IMG/VR virus record: IMGVR_UViG_3300020404_000113
Span: 1-23,844 of that record
DNA: 23,844 nt
Source: a virus
Direction: 5' to 3' (one strand)
Shown: positions 1,172-22,721 of the stretch, piece after piece
How positions within the stretch are numbered: position 1 is the stretch's first letter
Layout of the letters: the number at the start of each line of letters is the position of its first letter
The notes under the pieces: model-generated
What the model saw: only the letters and a program-made list of their open reading frames with translations
What the model was told of the DNA's origin: nothing
Databases searched by the model: none
Position numbers and translations under genes: made by a program

Positions 1172-2998
1172 ATGTACGATCTTGTGTTTGATATTGAAAC
1201 CAACGCCATCGAGGATTGGGATGAGCTGAGTGATCTGGAGGTGATTCACTGCATTGCGATCATGGATCCCTCGACTGATGACGTGGATGTCTATTCAGAC
1301 CACTATGAGGAGGGCCACAAACTTCAAGATGGGGTTCATCGGTTGATGCTGGCAGATCGTCTGGTCGGTCACAACATCACCCGGTTCGACATCCCCGCGA
1401 TGAAGAAGATGTTGCCCCTCGCAAACTTTGATGATTGTGACATCGTGGATACTTTGCTGGCATCCCGCATCATGAACCCTGATGTTCTCAAGGGGGACTG
1501 CCAAGACAGTGATTTCCCCTCTCGGCTCCGTGGTCGATACAGCCTTGAAGCCTGGGGCTACCGCCTCAAGATGCACAAGGGTGACTTCGGCAAGCAGACT
1601 GATTGGTCTGAGTTCACCGAGGAGATGGCCGACTACTGCAAGCAGGATGTCCGGGTGAACGCGAGGTTGTGGAACGCGATCGCCGAGACGTTCCTGCCTG
1701 AGGTCTATGCAATGGAGAGAGACTTCAGGAACATCCTGATCGATCAAGAGATGAACGGGGTTGTCTTCGATGAAGAGGCTGCATTCAAGCTGCACTCAGA
1801 ATTGATCGGGCAGAAGATCGACATCGAGCGTGAGCTACAGAGGATCTTCCCTCCCCAAGAGGAGTTCATGAAGACTCCTCAGTATTACTTCGACCCAGAT
1901 ACAGACGAACGGTTCGAGCGTAAGAAGGATGCACCCGCCAAGATGAAGAAGGCTTTGAAGCCAGGTCCCTTGAAGAAGCGAGTGGTGCCCTTCAACCCCG
2001 GCAGCCGGCTACAGATCGCGAACGCCTTGATCAAGATGTATGACTGGCAGCCCTCCGAGTTCACTGGCGACGGGCGGCCGAAGGTGGATGAGACGGTGTT
2101 GTCGAGCCTGACGTATCCTGAGGCGAAGGTTCTCACCAAGTATCTGCTGCTCTGCAAGCGGATTGGCCAGCTCTCGGAAGGTAGGGAGAGCTGGATCCGG
2201 GCCAGCCGTGATGGGCGTATCTACGGACACGTCGAGACCATCGGGACTATCTCCTCTCGCTGCTCGCACAGCCGTCCCAATCTGGCTCAGGTGCCTGCTC
2301 TCGGCTCACCTTGGGGCAAGGAGTGTCGTGAGCTGTTCAAGCCCACCACAGGAATGGTCATGGTCGGATGTGATATGTCTGGGCTTGAGCTGCGGTGCCT
2401 TGCTCACTACCTCGCTCGCTGGGATGAGGGTGAGTACATCAAGGTGATCCAGGAGGGAGACATCCACCAGTTCAACGCCGACAAGATGGGGGTCGATCGG
2501 GGTGTGGGTAAAGGCATCATGTATGCCACCCTGTATGGTGCGGGAGACATCAAGATTGGCCAGCTTGTTGGTGGCGGTCGGCGTGAAGGGCGGAGTATGA
2601 GGTCACTACTGGAAAGTGGCATCCCCGCACTGAAGCGGTTGAAGAACGCAATCAAGAACCGGCTGAAGAGAGAAGACTGGCTCCCCGCTATCGATGGGCG
2701 TCGTCTACCTATTCGATCAGAGCATTCAGCACTTAACCTGTTGCTTCAGTCAGCAGGTAGTATACTTATGAAGCAGGCAACTATTATGATGAACAGGGAG
2801 ATCAAGAAACGCGGTCTCCACGCTCGTCAAGTAATGCACGTCCACGATGAGGTTCAATTCGAAGCACCCGAAAGTGAGGCGAAGTATGTCGGAAGGATTG
2901 CGGTACACTCGATGCGCCAGGCCGGTCAGCCCTACGACTTCCGGTGTCCCCTCGACGGAGAGTTCAAGATCGGTGCCTCTTGGGCTGATACCCACTGA
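1172..2998 (+). CDS. T7 gp5-like family A DNA polymerase with 3'-5' exonuclease
   Basis: This is the replicative DNA polymerase, 608 aa against about 704 in T7. The exonuclease domain has Exo I with D7 and E9 (FDIETNA), Exo II HNITRFDIPA and Exo III YCKQDV. The polymerase domain has motif A around D401 (CDMSGLELR), an O-helix with R443, K447 and Y451 (RGVGKGIMYATLYG), and motif C H558-D559-E560. It ends in GASWADTH, which aligns with the T7 C-terminus, so the protein is full length and has no intein. Tyr451 sits at the position equivalent to E. coli Pol I F762, which is associated with lytic phages. The loop between IFPPQ and FNPGSR, where T7 has its thioredoxin-binding domain, is shorter (roughly 47 versus nearly 70 residues) but still Lys-rich. 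The start ATG follows AGGAGG with good spacing. The last 26 bases overlap the proposed homing endonuclease gene. Confidence 0.97.
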   Translation: MYDLVFDIETNAIEDWDELSDLEVIHCIAIMDPSTDDVDVYSDHYEEGHKLQDGVHRLMLADRLVGHNITRFDIPAMKKMLPLANFDDCDIVDTLLASRIMNPDVLKGDCQDSDFPSRLRGRYSLEAWGYRLKMHKGDFGKQTDWSEFTEEMADYCKQDVRVNARLWNAIAETFLPEVYAMERDFRNILIDQEMNGVVFDEEAAFKLHSELIGQKIDIERELQRIFPPQEEFMKTPQYYFDPDTDERFERKKDAPAKMKKALKPGPLKKRVVPFNPGSRLQIANALIKMYDWQPSEFTGDGRPKVDETVLSSLTYPEAKVLTKYLLLCKRIGQLSEGRESWIRASRDGRIYGHVETIGTISSRCSHSRPNLAQVPALGSPWGKECRELFKPTTGMVMVGCDMSGLELRCLAHYLARWDEGEYIKVIQEGDIHQFNADKMGVDRGVGKGIMYATLYGAGDIKIGQLVGGGRREGRSMRSLLESGIPALKRLKNAIKNRLKREDWLPAIDGRRLPIRSEHSALNLLLQSAGSILMKQATIMMNREIKKRGLHARQVMHVHDEVQFEAPESEAKYVGRIAVHSMRQAGQPYDFRCPLDGEFKIGASWADTH

Positions 2999-3347
2999 CG
3001 TGGCGTGGTTGGCCGGCATCGTTGATGGCGAGGGGTATGTGGATTTCCGTGGCTCCCCGACAATCCAAGTGGAGACAGTGTCTCCTGAATTGGTGTATGA
3101 GCCTGAAGCAATGTTCGGGGGGTCAGTCACTCATCGGATCAAGAAGAATACACGCGTATTTCGTTGGAGCATCTACGGTAAAAAGGCCGTGGAATTACTG
3201 CTGTTGATGCTCCCTTACCTCCGATATAAAAAACCACAGGCTGAGATTGTTATTTGCTGCGGCAAGTTCCCCGTCAAGTCAGCCATGAGGGCGTCGAATG
3301 ATCGTCGCCTCCGCGAACTGCGAAAGAAGAGATATGGATCCACTTGA
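2973..3347 (+). CDS. small LAGLIDADG homing endonuclease, freestanding
   Basis: The frame carries one LAGLIDADG motif, WLAGIVDGEGYV (residues 12-23 from the chosen start). The acidic residue E20 is in the metal-binding position. Downstream, the segments VFRWSIYGKKAVELL and MLPYLRYKKPQAEIV look like the typical core: a beta strand, a helix, and a Lys-rich segment. A single motif in about 124 aa implies a homodimer that cuts a roughly palindromic site. The start is uncertain. GTG at 2973 has a GGAGAG ribosome binding site about 10 bases upstream, inside the polymerase gene. GTG at 3000 would begin right at the motif without a Shine-Dalgarno sequence. There is no ATG close by. The polymerase upstream is complete, so this is a freestanding homing gene and not an intron or intein endonuclease. 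By eye the body (3130-3260) is more AT-rich than its neighbours, which fits acquisition. Confidence 0.8.
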   Translation: MPLGLIPTDVAWLAGIVDGEGYVDFRGSPTIQVETVSPELVYEPEAMFGGSVTHRIKKNTRVFRWSIYGKKAVELLLLMLPYLRYKKPQAEIVICCGKFPVKSAMRASNDRRLRELRKKRYGST

Positions 3348-5044: not shown

Positions 5045-6561
5045 TGGAAACCCTCAAGTCCATCTACCACAAATGCTCAGGTGAGCGTCAGTCCTACTTG
5101 GATCGTGGTAGGGACGCGAGTGCCCTGACTATTCCGAGCCTTCTCCCGGATGAGGGTACGACATCATCTAGGCGGTTCCCCACCCCGTACCAAAGCATTG
5201 GTGCCCGTGGCGTGAACAACCTAGCGTCGGCCCTCCTTCTTTCTTTGCTCCCTCCCAACGCCCCCTTTTTCAGGCTTCAGCTTGATGAGGCGACGGAGAG
5301 AGAGCTGGAAGCCCTAGACCCAAAGATCATCACTGAGATCGAAGATTCCCTAGCCAACATCGAGAGATCGATGATGGATGAGATCGAGCGTTCAGGTGTC
5401 CGAACCGGACTCTTTGACGCCGTCCGACACCTCGTCGTCACAGGTAATGCTCTCCTGTACTTTCCTGATGGCGGCAACATGCGTGTGGTTCACCTGGATC
5501 GCTACGTGGTCAAGAGATGTCCTTTGGGCTTCGTGCGTATGGTCGTCCTCATGGAGACGGTATCCCCAGTCATGCTCCCTGAAGTAATCAAGGACAAGCT
5601 GGGCGACAAGACTTCATACGACGATCATGTAGAGATGTACACCGGCATGGTCACCCGCATGGACGGGAAGATTGAGGTGTACCAAGAAGTCGCTGGCGAA
5701 GAGGTCGAAGGCTCCCGCCGTGTTCTCGCTGCTGAAGACGCTCCATTCATCCCCCTCAGGATGAGCCGAGTTGACTCTGAGAACTATGGCCGTGGATACG
5801 TTGAGCAATATCTTGGTGACCTGCAAAGCCTTGAGGGCCTGACGAAGGCCATTGTTGAAGGCAGTGCAGCAGCAGCCAAGGTTCTGTTCCTTGTCAACCC
5901 CAACGGGACAACCAGAGCCCGAACACTTTCTGAGTCACCCAACGGTGCTATTCGCGAGGGTAATGCAAATGATGTCAGTGTCCTTCAAAGTCAGAAAGCG
6001 TCCGATTTCTCTGTTGCACTCAACACGACTCGCGACATTAAGGAACGTCTCGCGTATGCGTTTCTGCTCCTTGAAGGCTCAATTCGTAATGCTGATCGAG
6101 TCACCGCTGAAGAAGTACGACTGGTAACCCAGGCCGTAGAGCGTCAGCTTGGTGGCATCTACAGCATCCTGAGCCGAGAGTTGAGCATGCCCCTTGTCAC
6201 CCTTGTGATGAACAAGATGAAGCGAGAGAAGTCGCTGCCCAACCTCCCAGACGACAAGATTAAACCAGTTATTATTACAGGAATTGAAGCCCTCGGCCGA
6301 GGGAACGATCTCAACCGACTTGATACATACCTTGCAGGAATCGGTCAACTCCTCGGTCCCGAGGTGCTTCAAACTTATGTGGATGTAAGTGAGTACCTGA
6401 AGAGGCGAGCCCTGGCCCTGGGCATTGATACCAAGGGTCTGGTACGCTCCCCGGAAGAGCTTGCTCAAATGCAAGCCGCACAACAGCAGCAGTCTATGGC
6501 TCAGTCTATGGCTCCACAGATTGCTGCTCAAATGAACCAAGGAGACCCAGTAGATGGCTGA
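5044..6561 (+). CDS. portal / head-tail connector protein (T7 gp8-like)
   Basis: A 505-aa portal protein, close to the 536 aa of T7 gp8. It forms the dodecameric ring at the head vertex through which DNA is packaged and to which the tail attaches. Recognisable features are the N-terminal GERQSYLDRGRDASALTIPS, TPYQSIGARGVNNLASALLL, LLPPNAPFFRLQ, the FDAVRHLVVTGNALLYF segment, and the SIRNADRVTAEEVRLV clip/stem-type region. The C-terminus is Gln/Met-rich (AAQQQQSMAQSMAPQ), as is common for portal tails. The ATG overlaps the upstream stop codon, and GGAG lies about 10 bases upstream. The scaffold gene overlaps its last 8 bases, fitting coordinated expression of the prohead parts. Confidence 0.97.
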   Translation: METLKSIYHKCSGERQSYLDRGRDASALTIPSLLPDEGTTSSRRFPTPYQSIGARGVNNLASALLLSLLPPNAPFFRLQLDEATERELEALDPKIITEIEDSLANIERSMMDEIERSGVRTGLFDAVRHLVVTGNALLYFPDGGNMRVVHLDRYVVKRCPLGFVRMVVLMETVSPVMLPEVIKDKLGDKTSYDDHVEMYTGMVTRMDGKIEVYQEVAGEEVEGSRRVLAAEDAPFIPLRMSRVDSENYGRGYVEQYLGDLQSLEGLTKAIVEGSAAAAKVLFLVNPNGTTRARTLSESPNGAIREGNANDVSVLQSQKASDFSVALNTTRDIKERLAYAFLLLEGSIRNADRVTAEEVRLVTQAVERQLGGIYSILSRELSMPLVTLVMNKMKREKSLPNLPDDKIKPVIITGIEALGRGNDLNRLDTYLAGIGQLLGPEVLQTYVDVSEYLKRRALALGIDTKGLVRSPEELAQMQAAQQQQSMAQSMAPQIAAQMNQGDPVDG

Positions 6562-7303
6562 TTATCAGAAGGTAGAAATCAAGGCTGAAGAAGCCCCGCC
6601 GATGGCACCTGATCAGGCCGAGCCTATGCAGGAAGCCATTCCGGAAGCCCCTCAGGAGCCCGTGATCGAGCGTCCCGAGTGGCTGCCTGAGAAGTTCGAG
6701 ACTCCTGAAGCTATGGCCTACGCCTACAAGCAGCTTGAGCAGGAGTATTCCAAGTCACGGGCTGGGGAAGAGACCCCAGAGGAAGCACCTGCCGGCGTTG
6801 ACCCCGAAACCTTTGCGGCTCTCAGCGAAGAGTTCGATGAGACCGGCGACGTGTCTGAGGAGTCCCGATCACGTCTTGCCGAGACCGGCATCCCCCGTGA
6901 GTTCATTGATGAATATATTGAAGGCCAGAAGATCATGGCCGAGACCGCCATCAAGGATGTTTACCAGTCCGTGGGTGGCGAAGACAACTACAACAACATG
7001 CTGAACTGGGCGACGAACAACCTCTCCGACCAGGAGATCGATGTGTTCAACGACCTTGTTGCCGGCAGCCCTCAGGAGGTTCAAATGGCTGTGGCCGGGC
7101 TCTATGCTCGTTACAGTCAGCAAGCCCCCACCCAGCCAACGCAGCCGTTGATGCAGGGTGAGCCCTCTTCTGATCTTGCTTCTGGATCAACCTTCCAGTC
7201 AAGAGCCCAGATCACGGAGGCCATGAGCGATCCTCGATACAAGAAGGATCCCGCCTACCGCAACGAAGTTTACCGTCGTCTTCAGAATTCAAAAGCACTT
7301 TAG
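6554..7303 (+). CDS. capsid assembly scaffolding protein (T7 gp9-like)
   Basis: A 249-aa, strongly acidic protein in the scaffold position between portal and capsid. It directs prohead assembly and leaves before or during packaging. The N-terminus is a Glu/Pro-rich disordered stretch (EEAPPMAPDQAEP onward), followed by RPEWLPEKFETPEAMAYAYKQLE, a signature common in T7-like scaffolds. A helical middle follows, and then a C-terminal segment SDPRYKKDPAYRNEVYRRLQ that ends NSKAL. The basic, amphipathic C-terminus is where scaffolds of this type contact the coat protein. AAGGAG lies about 9 bases before the ATG, inside the end of the portal gene. Confidence 0.94.
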   Translation: MADYQKVEIKAEEAPPMAPDQAEPMQEAIPEAPQEPVIERPEWLPEKFETPEAMAYAYKQLEQEYSKSRAGEETPEEAPAGVDPETFAALSEEFDETGDVSEESRSRLAETGIPREFIDEYIEGQKIMAETAIKDVYQSVGGEDNYNNMLNWATNNLSDQEIDVFNDLVAGSPQEVQMAVAGLYARYSQQAPTQPTQPLMQGEPSSDLASGSTFQSRAQITEAMSDPRYKKDPAYRNEVYRRLQNSKAL

Positions 7304-7312
7304 GAGAACCCC

Positions 7313-7522
7313 ATGTCTAAGCCTGGATATAAGACCACTGAGTTTTGGCTCAGTACCGCTGCCGCCTTTGTTGGTGCCCTTGTGGCTGCCGATGTTATCC
7401 CGTCTGCGGAACCCTGGGGTCAGGTCGTCGGACTGGTTTCCGCTGCCCTTGTGGCTCTCGGATACACCGGTGCCCGGCTGAACCTCAAGAAGTCCGAGGC
7501 TGACTATGAGGAAGAAGAGTGA
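7313..7522 (+). CDS. holin-like two-helix membrane protein
   Basis: A 69-aa protein with two predicted membrane segments (about residues 11-26 and 36-52) joined by a short turn containing Pro30 and Pro34-Trp35. It has a short N-terminus KPGYKTTEFW and a charged, acidic C-terminal tail ending DYEEEE. The KTTEFW start followed by two hydrophobic helices and GYTxxR is a pattern I know from small phage proteins often annotated as holins. Length and topology fit a class II holin, but the sequence does not prove hole formation. AGGAG precedes the ATG at good spacing. It sits between scaffold and major capsid genes, not in the T7 holin position after the tail fibre, and heads a three-gene membrane/lipoprotein group. 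Confidence 0.7.
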   Translation: MSKPGYKTTEFWLSTAAAFVGALVAADVIPSAEPWGQVVGLVSAALVALGYTGARLNLKKSEADYEEEE

Positions 7523-7525
7523 TCG

Positions 7526-7684
7526 GTGTATGAAGCACTTGCTTCCATACTCGTCATCCTCCTCACCCCGTTTGTGGGGTATCTCAAAGAACGTAAGACA
7601 GAAGCTCATGACGCTCCTGTGTCTCCTGACCGCAAGCGTTGGGTTGACCGGGTGCGGAGCTTCAAGAGTCGTATTCGTAGATGA
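7526..7684 (+). CDS. short single-helix membrane protein (inner-membrane spanin or antiholin candidate)
   Basis: This 52-aa frame starts at a GTG immediately after the holin-like gene's stop, with GGAAGAAGAG about 6 bases upstream. Residues 4-20 (ALASILVILLTPFVGYL) form one membrane helix. The remaining 32 residues are highly charged and end SFKSRIRR. The last 77 bases overlap the lipoprotein gene in another frame, which is the architecture of Rz/Rz1 spanin pairs. However, the soluble part is much shorter than in known inner-membrane spanins and lacks a clear long coiled coil, and the basic tail favours a cytoplasmic C-terminus. An antiholin or regulator role is therefore equally possible. 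The clean start signal, the hydrophobic segment and the fit with its neighbours are why I call it real. Confidence 0.55.
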   Translation: MYEALASILVILLTPFVGYLKERKTEAHDAPVSPDRKRWVDRVRSFKSRIRR

Positions 7685-7862
7685 GTCCGAAGGGTTTATT
7701 CGGATGGGTCCAGATGTCAGGGGCCATGTCTACTATTGGAATGGCAGTTCATGGGAACTGTCTGACAACAAGGTTCTGATACCAGAAGGCTGGTACGCAG
7801 GATCAATCGATGGCGATGTTGAGGGATCTAACGATACCCGGCCCGCTGCGGTGGATAACTGA
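7608..7862 (+). CDS. small lipoprotein, possible outer-membrane spanin-like
   Basis: An 84-aa protein whose N-terminus MTLLCLLTASVGLTGC is a lipoprotein signal with lipobox LTGC, giving Cys16 as the lipidated residue. The signal lacks the usual N-terminal Lys/Arg, which is odd. The mature part, about 69 aa, holds a compact beta-rich-looking segment: RVVFVDESEGFIRMGPDVRG, then VYYWNGSSWELS and LIPEGWYAG. I recall this G-D-V-x-G, W-x-L and P-E-G-W-Y pattern from phage lipoproteins in lysis regions. It is not proline-rich as Rz1 usually is. An upstream in-frame ATG at 7506 would add an unlikely 34 residues before the signal. No strong Shine-Dalgarno precedes 7608, so coupling to translation of the overlapping upstream gene is likely. 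Confidence 0.75.
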   Translation: MTLLCLLTASVGLTGCGASRVVFVDESEGFIRMGPDVRGHVYYWNGSSWELSDNKVLIPEGWYAGSIDGDVEGSNDTRPAAVDN

Positions 7863-7926: not shown

Positions 7927-8988
7927 ATGGCTTATACTGAACCAACAGTTAGTCGCCTCGGCCAAGTCAACACCAGTGGTGACGCTGACGCCCTCTTCCT
8001 GAAGGTTTTCTCTGGTGAGATCCTTCAGGTGTTTGAGGAAAACAACATCATGATGCCGCTCACTCAGCAGCGGAACATCAGCAGTGGTAAGACCGCTCAG
8101 TTCCCCGTCGTGGGTACGGCGCAGGCCAAGTACCACACCCCTGGTGAGTCTGTTCTGGTTACCGAAGATTCGTCGGCATCAAAGTACCTTTCTCAGGTCA
8201 AGCATGCCGAGCGGACCATCAGCATCGACGGCGTCCTTCTCTCGACGGCGTTCATTGCGGACATCGATGAGGCGAAGAACCACTACGACGTTCGGGCGGC
8301 TTACACCACCCAGATCGGTCGTGAGCTTGCCTATCATGCGGACCGTGCGCTTATTCGTACTGTCATCGCGGGTGCCCGTGCTGACAAGGACCGTTTCGAC
8401 GTTGATTCTGGAACCTCCACTCAGTTCCTCGGTGCGCAGATCAACACCACTGGTGGTGATACTGCCTACACCGCCGACGAGCTTGTTGAGGCTTGTGCAG
8501 AAGTGGCCCAAAAGATGGACGAAAAGAACGTGCCGTCCGAAGGTCGGTACATGGTCCTGAGCCCTGCTCAGTATTACACTCTTGTTAAGAGTGGCAATGC
8601 GGCCATCAACAGCGACTTCGGTGGTATGGGATCGATCGCTACGGGCGAAGTCACTCAGGTTTCGGGTGTTCGAATCCTGAAGTCTAACCATATCCCGAAT
8701 GGTACTGATGCAGCAGGCTCGATCTTCAAGAACAGCCTGATCAACAACGATGTGTATGACGATCACGATGGCACTGGCACCGTTGGTGCTGGCTACTCTG
8801 CCACCGCTGCATACAACACCGTTGGTGTGGCCTTCCAGAGTGAGGCTGTTGGTACGGTCAAGCTCATGGACCTTGCAGTCGAGAGCGAGTACCAGATGGA
8901 TCGCCTCGGCACCCTGATGCTTGCGAAGTACGCCATGGGTCACGGTATCCTCCGTGAAGAGTGCTGCTACGAGATCATCACTGCCTGA
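7927..8988 (+). CDS. major capsid protein (T7 gp10A-like)
   Basis: A 353-aa coat protein, close to T7 gp10A (345 aa), with the HK97-type fold expected. Recognisable features are an N-terminal segment ending NTSGDADALFLKVFSGEIL, then FEENNIMMPLTQQRNISSGKTAQFPVVG, AKYHTPGESVL, a DGVLLSTAFIADIDEAKNHYD stretch, GRELAYHADRALIR, and a C-terminal AVGTVKLMDLAVESEYQMDR and LGTLMLAKYAMGHGILRE. It ends in a double stop TGATAA. I see no slippery sequence before the stop, so there is no evidence for a gp10B-type frameshift product. AGGAG lies 7 bases before the ATG. A strong hairpin terminator follows it. Confidence 0.98.
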   Translation: MAYTEPTVSRLGQVNTSGDADALFLKVFSGEILQVFEENNIMMPLTQQRNISSGKTAQFPVVGTAQAKYHTPGESVLVTEDSSASKYLSQVKHAERTISIDGVLLSTAFIADIDEAKNHYDVRAAYTTQIGRELAYHADRALIRTVIAGARADKDRFDVDSGTSTQFLGAQINTTGGDTAYTADELVEACAEVAQKMDEKNVPSEGRYMVLSPAQYYTLVKSGNAAINSDFGGMGSIATGEVTQVSGVRILKSNHIPNGTDAAGSIFKNSLINNDVYDDHDGTGTVGAGYSATAAYNTVGVAFQSEAVGTVKLMDLAVESEYQMDRLGTLMLAKYAMGHGILREECCYEIITA

Positions 8989-22270: not shown

Positions 22271-22525
22271 ATGATTACTAAAGAACTCGAAGTGGACAAG
22301 ATCGAAGTCGTAGGACTTTGGAATGTCCAAGTACGAACCGCCACTGTCATCAAGGAAGGCGATGAGGAAATCTCACGATCCTTCCATCGTCATGTCCTCA
22401 CTCCCGACAGTGATATGTCTGAAGAGGATCCGCGAGTGGTTGCAGTTGCCGAAGCGGCTTGGACACCTGAAGTTCGTGCAGCGTTTGATGCATTCAAGGA
22501 AGCCCAGACTGATGGAGTCGGATAA
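22271..22525 (+). CDS. small conserved protein after the fibre genes, about 84 aa
   Basis: An acidic 84-aa protein starting MITKELEVDKIEVVG. The segment WNVQVRTATVIKEGDEEISR followed by SFHRHVLTPDSD resembles a short protein I recall near tail-fibre genes of several marine phages, but I know of no assigned function. The ATG at 22271 has AAAGGA 8 bases upstream; an ATG at 22262 overlaps that site and is less likely. The C-terminus ends in a helical AAWTPEVRAAFDAFKEAQ. It overlaps the next gene by 14 bases. Confidence 0.7.
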   Translation: MITKELEVDKIEVVGLWNVQVRTATVIKEGDEEISRSFHRHVLTPDSDMSEEDPRVVAVAEAAWTPEVRAAFDAFKEAQTDGVG

Positions 22526-22721
22526 TCAAATCCTGGTCGCCTTAGGCCGTCTCGAAGGAAAGGTGGATGCTCTCATCTCTCGCCAAGCGGTTCATGATGA
22601 GGAACTGCAACGGCATGATGTGAGACTAAGAAACCTGGAACAGGGCAGGTCTTGGCTCTTTGGTGCGGCTGCCGTAATTGGTGCAATCGCTTCTTTTATT
22701 TCAACAAAGATTGGACTGTGA
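22512..22721 (+). CDS. XhlA/holin-like coiled-coil membrane protein
   Basis: A 69-aa protein with a hydrophilic coiled-coil-like N-terminal part (residues about 6-46, ILVALGRLEGKVDALISRQA and onward with heptad-spaced Leu/Val/Ile) and one C-terminal membrane helix (about residues 48-63, WLFGAAAVIGAIASFI). This layout resembles XhlA-type hemolysin proteins and other small lysis-associated phage proteins. It lies between fibre and packaging genes, the position of T7 holin gp17.5, so a lysis function is plausible. Hole formation itself is not shown. GGAAG lies about 9 bases before the ATG. It is the second holin-like gene in the window. Confidence 0.68.
   Translation: MESDNQILVALGRLEGKVDALISRQAVHDEELQRHDVRLRNLEQGRSWLFGAAAVIGAIASFISTKIGL

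Follow-up and report, generated by a model that had tools for sequence, protein, structure and literature searches.

Known lysis systems and organization of the locus

In bacteriophages T7 (gp18.5/gp18.7) and lambda (Rz/Rz1), an inner-membrane partner and a lipoprotein are read from different frames of shared DNA, the lipoprotein gene being located wholly inside the partner gene. The partners gp18.5 and Rz comprise 143–153 aa and carry a Lys/Arg residue before a clean hydrophobic helix, and T7 keeps these spanin genes at positions 18.5–18.7. Combined periplasmic lengths of two-component spanins range from 62 to 300 residues, and 507 of the 528 catalogued two-component spanins possess a periplasmic cysteine, leaving 21 pairs without one (PMC6139136). 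Other topologies could, according to Kongari et al., serve as i-spanins (PMC6139136). Unimolecular spanins, by contrast, are one protein, namely a lipoprotein with a C-terminal membrane helix (T1 gp11 type, PMC6139136; cobavirus/SIO1 type, PMC6775973). Disruptins are introduced in PMC12819732, with reference to Holt et al. 2022, as short amphipathic phage peptides of spanin-less phages, one of them from the T7-like phage phiKT. In the T7-like Rhizobium phage Pasto (MT708545) an endolysin, a class II holin, an i-spanin of 97 aa and an overlapping o-spanin are annotated between the scaffold and capsid genes.

The locus reported here belongs to a marine virus and is found in IMG/VR record IMGVR_UViG_3300020404_000113, positions 1–23,844; this 23.8-kb stretch, analyzed as a whole, is denoted the window. 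Its genes follow a T7-like order, i.e. primase-helicase, DNA polymerase, exonuclease, portal, scaffold, capsid, tail tubes, internal virion proteins, fibre and small terminase. Three ORFs are arranged head to tail in the slot between the scaffold gene on the left and the capsid gene on the right. The features are:

6554–7303, + strand: capsid scaffold (T7 gp9-like), left border of the slot (PF05396, E=5.5e-22)
7302–7306, + strand: AGGAG ribosome-binding site of the first gene (from the sequence)
7313–7522, + strand: 69-aa two-helix membrane protein (KPGYKTTEFW family), ATG start, holin-like (ORF; weak holin matches)
7526–7684, + strand: 52-aa partner, GTG start (ORF, family conservation, AlphaFold model)
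7608–7862, + strand: putative outer-membrane lipoprotein, 84 aa, ATG start, lipobox LTGC (ORF, lipobox, conservation, model)
7608–7684, + strand: overlap of the 52-aa and lipoprotein genes, 77 nt, possibly longer (coding in both frames)
7927–8988, + strand: major capsid protein (T7 gp10A-like), right border of the slot (PF21703, E=2e-65)
22512–22721, + strand: XhlA-like 69-aa protein with a C-terminal membrane helix, at the position of T7 gene 17.5 (holin) (PF10779, E=4e-4, below the Pfam cut-off)

The first and second genes are separated by a 3-nt gap, and a purine-rich stretch (AGGAAGAAGAG, 7509–7519) lies ahead of the GTG at 7526. A first-pass annotation of this DNA had placed three ORFs here, between scaffold and capsid; all three are present, as are their Pfam-identified neighbors. 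The earlier observation is confirmed and is stronger than originally claimed. Since the three-gene order recurs in many viruses, the arrangement is more than chance.

The window pair resembles those of T7 and lambda in combining an inner-membrane partner with a lipoprotein from another frame of shared DNA, but its genes merely overlap, its partner is far shorter and it is located between scaffold and capsid. With Pasto it has in common a T7-like genome, the same slot and the succession of a holin or holin-like gene and two overlapping genes. It differs in that Pasto has an adjacent endolysin and a longer i-spanin, and the Pasto proteins have no recognizable sequence kinship with the trio. On positional and comparative grounds we assign a probability of about 0.7 to the reading that 7313–7862 is a late lysis module comprising a holin-type gene and an overlapped two-component spanin-type pair.

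Coding in both frames of the overlap

Over the overlap span the partner frame is open in 67 of 67 comparable loci, whereas the third frame is open in two. In a codon-randomization test on 48 diverged representatives the lipoprotein residues were kept fixed and synonymous codons were redrawn according to each phage's own usage. On redrawn codons the per-locus chance of an open partner frame is 46% on average, and the probability that all 48 representatives are open is 1.4e-20. The redrawn codons destroy the conserved partner motif: on a family profile built only from partners less than 60% identical, 47 of 48 real partner tails outscore all 400 randomized versions, with a mean z of 4.5. Conservation of both frames in relatives, which the first-pass annotation had proposed as a check, is thus borne out. 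The synonymous-site suppression expected along with it is visible but modest, fourfold-site differences dipping to 0.43 in the overlap vs 0.53 (0.59 vs 0.55 in a control group; the pairs are not independent).

The linkage typical of spanin genes, an overlap in different frames, is accordingly found in all 67 loci. In L230 and L242 the genes are separated, the partner lying just upstream without overlapping the mature lipoprotein. In a second group of relatives the partner ends ahead of the mature lipoprotein and the D-A and R-W motifs are still present, so the partner motif is not forced by the overlap. Wherever a parsed locus extends far enough upstream, the lipoprotein is preceded by a partner of 50–70 aa, and in none of these loci is the lipoprotein intact and the 52-aa frame broken. 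Such a loss was what the first-pass annotation had set against its own idea of a lysis pair, the core of which stands. Both frames, that encoding the 52-aa protein and that encoding the lipoprotein, are real genes under selection.

The lipoprotein

The lipobox cysteine is encoded at 7653–7655, within LTGC followed by Gly, so that the window lipoprotein carries the lipobox signal with a non-Asp residue at +2 that characterizes o-spanins. The lipobox is conserved across the family, with Asp at +2 in 1 of 116 cases by a rule-based assignment for which the start codon is uncertain. Cys16, Gly61 and Trp62 are invariant in the family. The mature lipoprotein comprises 69 residues and is modelled with a small β-domain, residues 31–60 having pLDDT values above 90.

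While the lipobox seen at first inspection is present, the start at 7608 is uncertain. Initiation at ATG 7608 gives a 15-residue signal segment without Lys or Arg, whereas with the in-frame TTG at 7572 (MWGISKNVRQKLMTLLCLLTASVGLTG, then Cys) the signal peptide is more normal and contains the basic residues K, R and K; ATG 7530 is another possible in-frame start. Use of an upstream start would extend the overlap beyond 77 nt. The lipoprotein is the sole lipobox ORF found on either strand of the window, where a Markov model predicts 0.03 such ORFs, and the same holds for the near-complete relative G003. A strict scan detected further lipoprotein-like ORFs in some relatives (G005, G008).

A fold search with the lipoprotein returned no PDB match and one uncharacterized viral relative with 55% identity, and scans of Pfam, PHROGs, NCBIfam and the PDB revealed no kinship to spanin families above noise. 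For the trio as a whole, database and structure scans gave no significant match to a spanin, a holin family or a solved structure.

The 52-aa partner

The partner harbors an N-terminal hydrophobic helix (residues 2–22), a linker with the near-invariant Asp29 and a basic helix (residues 36–50), both helices being reproduced in the AlphaFold model (mean pLDDT 87). Its first helix has a mean hydrophobicity of 1.92, which would suffice for a transmembrane helix; only 26 of 68 relatives' partners reach 1.6, and many are amphipathic. In these 68 non-redundant partners, from which the helix statistics are drawn, the first helix mostly starts near residue 1 and contains on average 2.3 charged residues per 18-residue hydrophobic stretch. 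Its hydrophobic moment is 0.35, compared with 0.12 for lambda Rz and 0.04 for T7 gp18.5, and it is followed by a net charge of +2.9 in 30 residues. The window partner has no Lys or Arg ahead of the helix and a net charge of +5 over the next 30 residues, and 59 of the 68 partners are more basic after the helix than before it. This charge distribution suggests a C-in or peripheral arrangement rather than the N-in/C-out topology of lambda Rz and T7 gp18.5, the positive-inside rule being weak evidence here; lambda Rz is likewise net positive after its helix. Hence the short inner-membrane partner that had been postulated to overlap the lipoprotein is short and is a real gene, but its product differs in charge pattern from a standard N-in i-spanin.

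If the partner tail is periplasmic, the combined periplasmic length of the pair would be approximately 30 + 69 = 99 residues, which is within the range of spanins. A periplasmic cysteine is lacking in 91 of 104 pairs, that of the window included, which contain no cysteine besides that of the lipobox.

The same features of the partner lead to an alternative that is still a lysis function, although by another mechanism. The 52-aa product may be a cationic amphipathic peptide like the phiKT disruptin, or another membrane-active partner, with the lipoprotein positioning or timing outer-membrane damage. The phiKT disruptin is likewise a short protein with an amphipathic helix from a T7-like phage (Holt et al. 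2022, cited in PMC12819732), and the helix near residue 1, its charged core, its moment and the basic segment behind it would fit in shape and charge. A disruptin, however, acts on the outer membrane by itself and needs no obligate overlapping lipoprotein, and none is described for phiKT, whereas the partner and the lipoprotein are never found apart here. Moreover, the partner tail is partly acidic in the large-phage group, and in phiKT no gene is annotated between scaffold and capsid. This alternative is therefore regarded as unlikely.

Occupants of the scaffold–capsid slot

Besides Pasto, two further isolates carry lysis-type genes in the slot. That of Limnohabitans phage YIMV22061 contains a holin (GTA_holin_3TM, PF11351, E=1.6e-17; also phrog_3427). 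In Pseudomonas phage LUZ100 (OP329100) a small membrane protein denoted 'LTPTP' is followed by the lipoprotein gp38, which matches Rz-like spanins (phrog_1275, E=1.6e-12), although the authors of that genome reported no spanin (PMC10134795). An unannotated helix ORF (L135:4063-4305) precedes and overlaps gp38, the pair spanning L135:4063-4411. The LUZ100 gp37–gp38 region thus resembles the window in its slot, small membrane protein ('LTPTP'), short helix ORF and overlapping lipoprotein, while its lipoprotein belongs to another family and has cysteines. In the uncultured phage MedDCM-OCT-S45-C18 (L136:3614-4141) the slot is occupied by an 'LTPTP' protein together with a helix ORF of 104 aa, and an unannotated lipoprotein (MLSVTAICVMLLMSGC...) overlaps the latter in another frame.

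The slot is visible in 71 capsid-matched IMG/VR loci; the pair is present in 54 of these and absent from 17. The 17 pair-less loci have a single lipoprotein with C-terminal membrane helices, the layout of a unimolecular spanin (PMC6139136; PMC6775973), nine of them by a strict rule and the other eight as borderline cases that resemble them on inspection but have a less distinct lipobox or helix. No lipoprotein of this kind occurs in the 54 pair-carrying loci. The closest case (L055) has a capsid protein 82% identical to that of the window. Two u-spanin-like families can be distinguished, one in L055, L056, L082, L098, L106, L124 and L130 and the other in L090, L119, L121, L132 and L133; the examples scanned had no convincing PHROG match. 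Unlike these single proteins the window encodes two. As an exchange between two proteins and one in bridging the envelope, the replacement of a pair by a single protein at one site fits spanin function better than the alternatives considered.

Because lysis-type genes are found in the same slot of isolates and relatives, the slot is a recurrent lysis site and not an oddity. In T7-like phages other than the coliphage group, lysis genes recurrently occupy the scaffold–capsid gap, and the description of the cassette as displaced, given in the first-pass annotation, was too strong. That its function is lysis is argued because the slot in related phages holds other lysis-type genes. The reduced spanin proposed at the outset draws support from dual coding and from these occupants, whereas kinship to known spanins is lacking and the mechanism is one that we infer.

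The slot occupants also bear on whether the lipoprotein might be a superinfection-exclusion factor of the Cor/Llp type with the 52-aa protein as its accessory. Small phage lipoproteins can indeed be exclusion proteins, and one relative matches the Cor family at noise level (phrog_1119, E=0.24). Yet the locus is situated among late morphogenesis genes with a holin-like gene ahead, the overlap of the lipoprotein with a membrane partner is obligate, and u-spanin-like and holin genes replace the pair in the slot, which makes exclusion very unlikely.

The first gene

The 69-aa protein comprises two hydrophobic segments and a charged C-terminal tail (KKSEADYEEEE), in agreement with the size and layout of a class II holin, and would adopt the corresponding N-in/C-in topology. 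Its match to holin family phrog_2359 is weak (E=0.0047), a relative reaches E=0.036 against PF23778 (14.8 bits, cut-off 32), and in PHROGs and Pfam no holin-family match is above cut-off. Its assignment to a lysis cassette, as made in the first-pass annotation, therefore agrees with the two helices, but the link to holins is weak. Proteins of this family (two helices, 60–80 aa, KPG-KTTEFW) are located upstream of the pair in most relatives, while the unrelated one-helix 'LTPTP' protein (phrog_9685) takes the position in L036, L038, L040, L045 and L046. The small-membrane-protein position is thus kept while its occupant changes.

This exchange speaks against a reading in which the 52-aa protein regulates the 69-aa protein, as an antiholin or by setting the timing of lysis, and the lipoprotein has an independent envelope role. 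The adjoining position of the two genes and the amphipathic helix of the 52-aa product would suit such a regulator. The pair is intact, however, where 'LTPTP' replaces the 69-aa family (L036, L038, L045, L046), so that the 52-aa partner follows the lipoprotein and not the holin-like gene; a regulator is accordingly highly improbable. Finally, although GC-rich sequence readily gives rise to overlapping open frames and random codons keep this one open in nearly half of the trials per locus, the notion that codon bias over the lipoprotein signal sequence produces the 52-aa frame as a by-product is refuted by the open-frame counts, by the codon-randomization test and by the persistence of the motif where the 52-aa gene clears the mature lipoprotein.

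Distribution of the trio

A lipoprotein scan of IMG/VR retrieved 52 true relatives; two further candidates (L053, L054) were rejected as tail-protein false positives. With a 17-sequence alignment as query the family was detected in at least 305 IMG/VR contigs, and a profile search of the loci found it in 217, of which 119 are distinct by their last 60 residues. No family member was found by tblastn in 50,697 isolate records with the lipoprotein, five relatives and the 69-aa protein as queries. Bacterial genomes gave one truncated match, on a 4.5-kb Neomarinimicrobiota MAG contig. The pair is widespread in uncultured aquatic phages.

The order of the trio is conserved in T7-like viruses and in viruses of 158–162 kb, in the latter beside an FtsZ/tubulin-like gene; it moves as a unit across unrelated phages. 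Its occurrence in the 158–162 kb viruses shows that the trio is no capsid accessory. A role of the lipoprotein as capsid decoration protein was separately rejected by reasoning, as a lipoprotein that is exported cannot cover a capsid inside the cell. A tubulin/FtsZ-like GTPase is encoded directly 5′ of the trio in large marine viruses (L257:4400-5560, PF00091, E=1.7e-14; similar ORFs in L228, L232 and L248). In the large-virus group the trio is also followed by a second lipoprotein with a conserved CGP motif (L049:5272-5820, L153:11245-11793), which is papain-like by eye and has no Pfam match.

Other lysis candidates

The XhlA-like protein encoded at 22512–22721 is matched in 13 of 16 related records and may, judging from its sequence, be a second holin. 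The endolysin of this virus is encoded outside the window. In the early region of the near-complete relative G003 (L146:2476-2865) a Destabilase-type lysozyme with a hydrophobic N-terminus is found (PF05497, E=2.4e-8), likely the counterpart of the endolysin of the window virus and likely signal-anchored. No amidase (PF01510) was found in 16 relatives, and in the loci read the trio has no endolysin next to it. The 321-aa protein adjacent to the trio in L255 at first resembled a wall hydrolase, but inspected by eye it is more like a serine protease. A PADLOC scan returned nothing. Elsewhere in the window, a LAGLIDADG-like ORF (2847–3347, LAGIVDGEGYV; PF05204, E=0.019, below cut-off) overlaps, in a different frame, the 3′ end of the DNA polymerase gene, and a similar ORF is found at L146:14381-14857.

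Proposed mechanism and implications

In the late lysis module favored here, the 69-aa two-helix protein would be a membrane protein of holin type or accessory to a holin. The 52-aa protein would reside on or in the inner membrane by means of its N-terminal helix, and the lipoprotein would be anchored in the outer membrane. Holin and endolysin would first open the inner membrane and the wall, whereupon the pair would disrupt the outer membrane or fuse it, leading to virion release. The membrane locations, the physical interaction of the pair and its role in lysis are what we infer from gene arrangement and sequence features.

Going further, the pair might be a new system by which uncultured aquatic phages disrupt the outer membrane, and not a fusion machine of the Rz/Rz1 type. 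It would consist of a lipoprotein with a small β-domain and an amphipathic helix protein of 50–70 residues inserting from the cytoplasmic side, with neither cysteine links nor a periplasmic coiled coil, and would exchange freely with u-spanin-like proteins at one site. This we hold to be possible but doubtful.

Marine phages are often scored as spanin-less, their genes being short, overlapping and unlike known families. If the pair is a spanin it is among the smallest, and mostly cysteine-free; if not, it would be another way to open the outer membrane. The scaffold–capsid gap of T7-like phages is worth searching for lysis genes, as exemplified by LUZ100, and the replacement of a pair by a single protein at a fixed site provides a natural test set.
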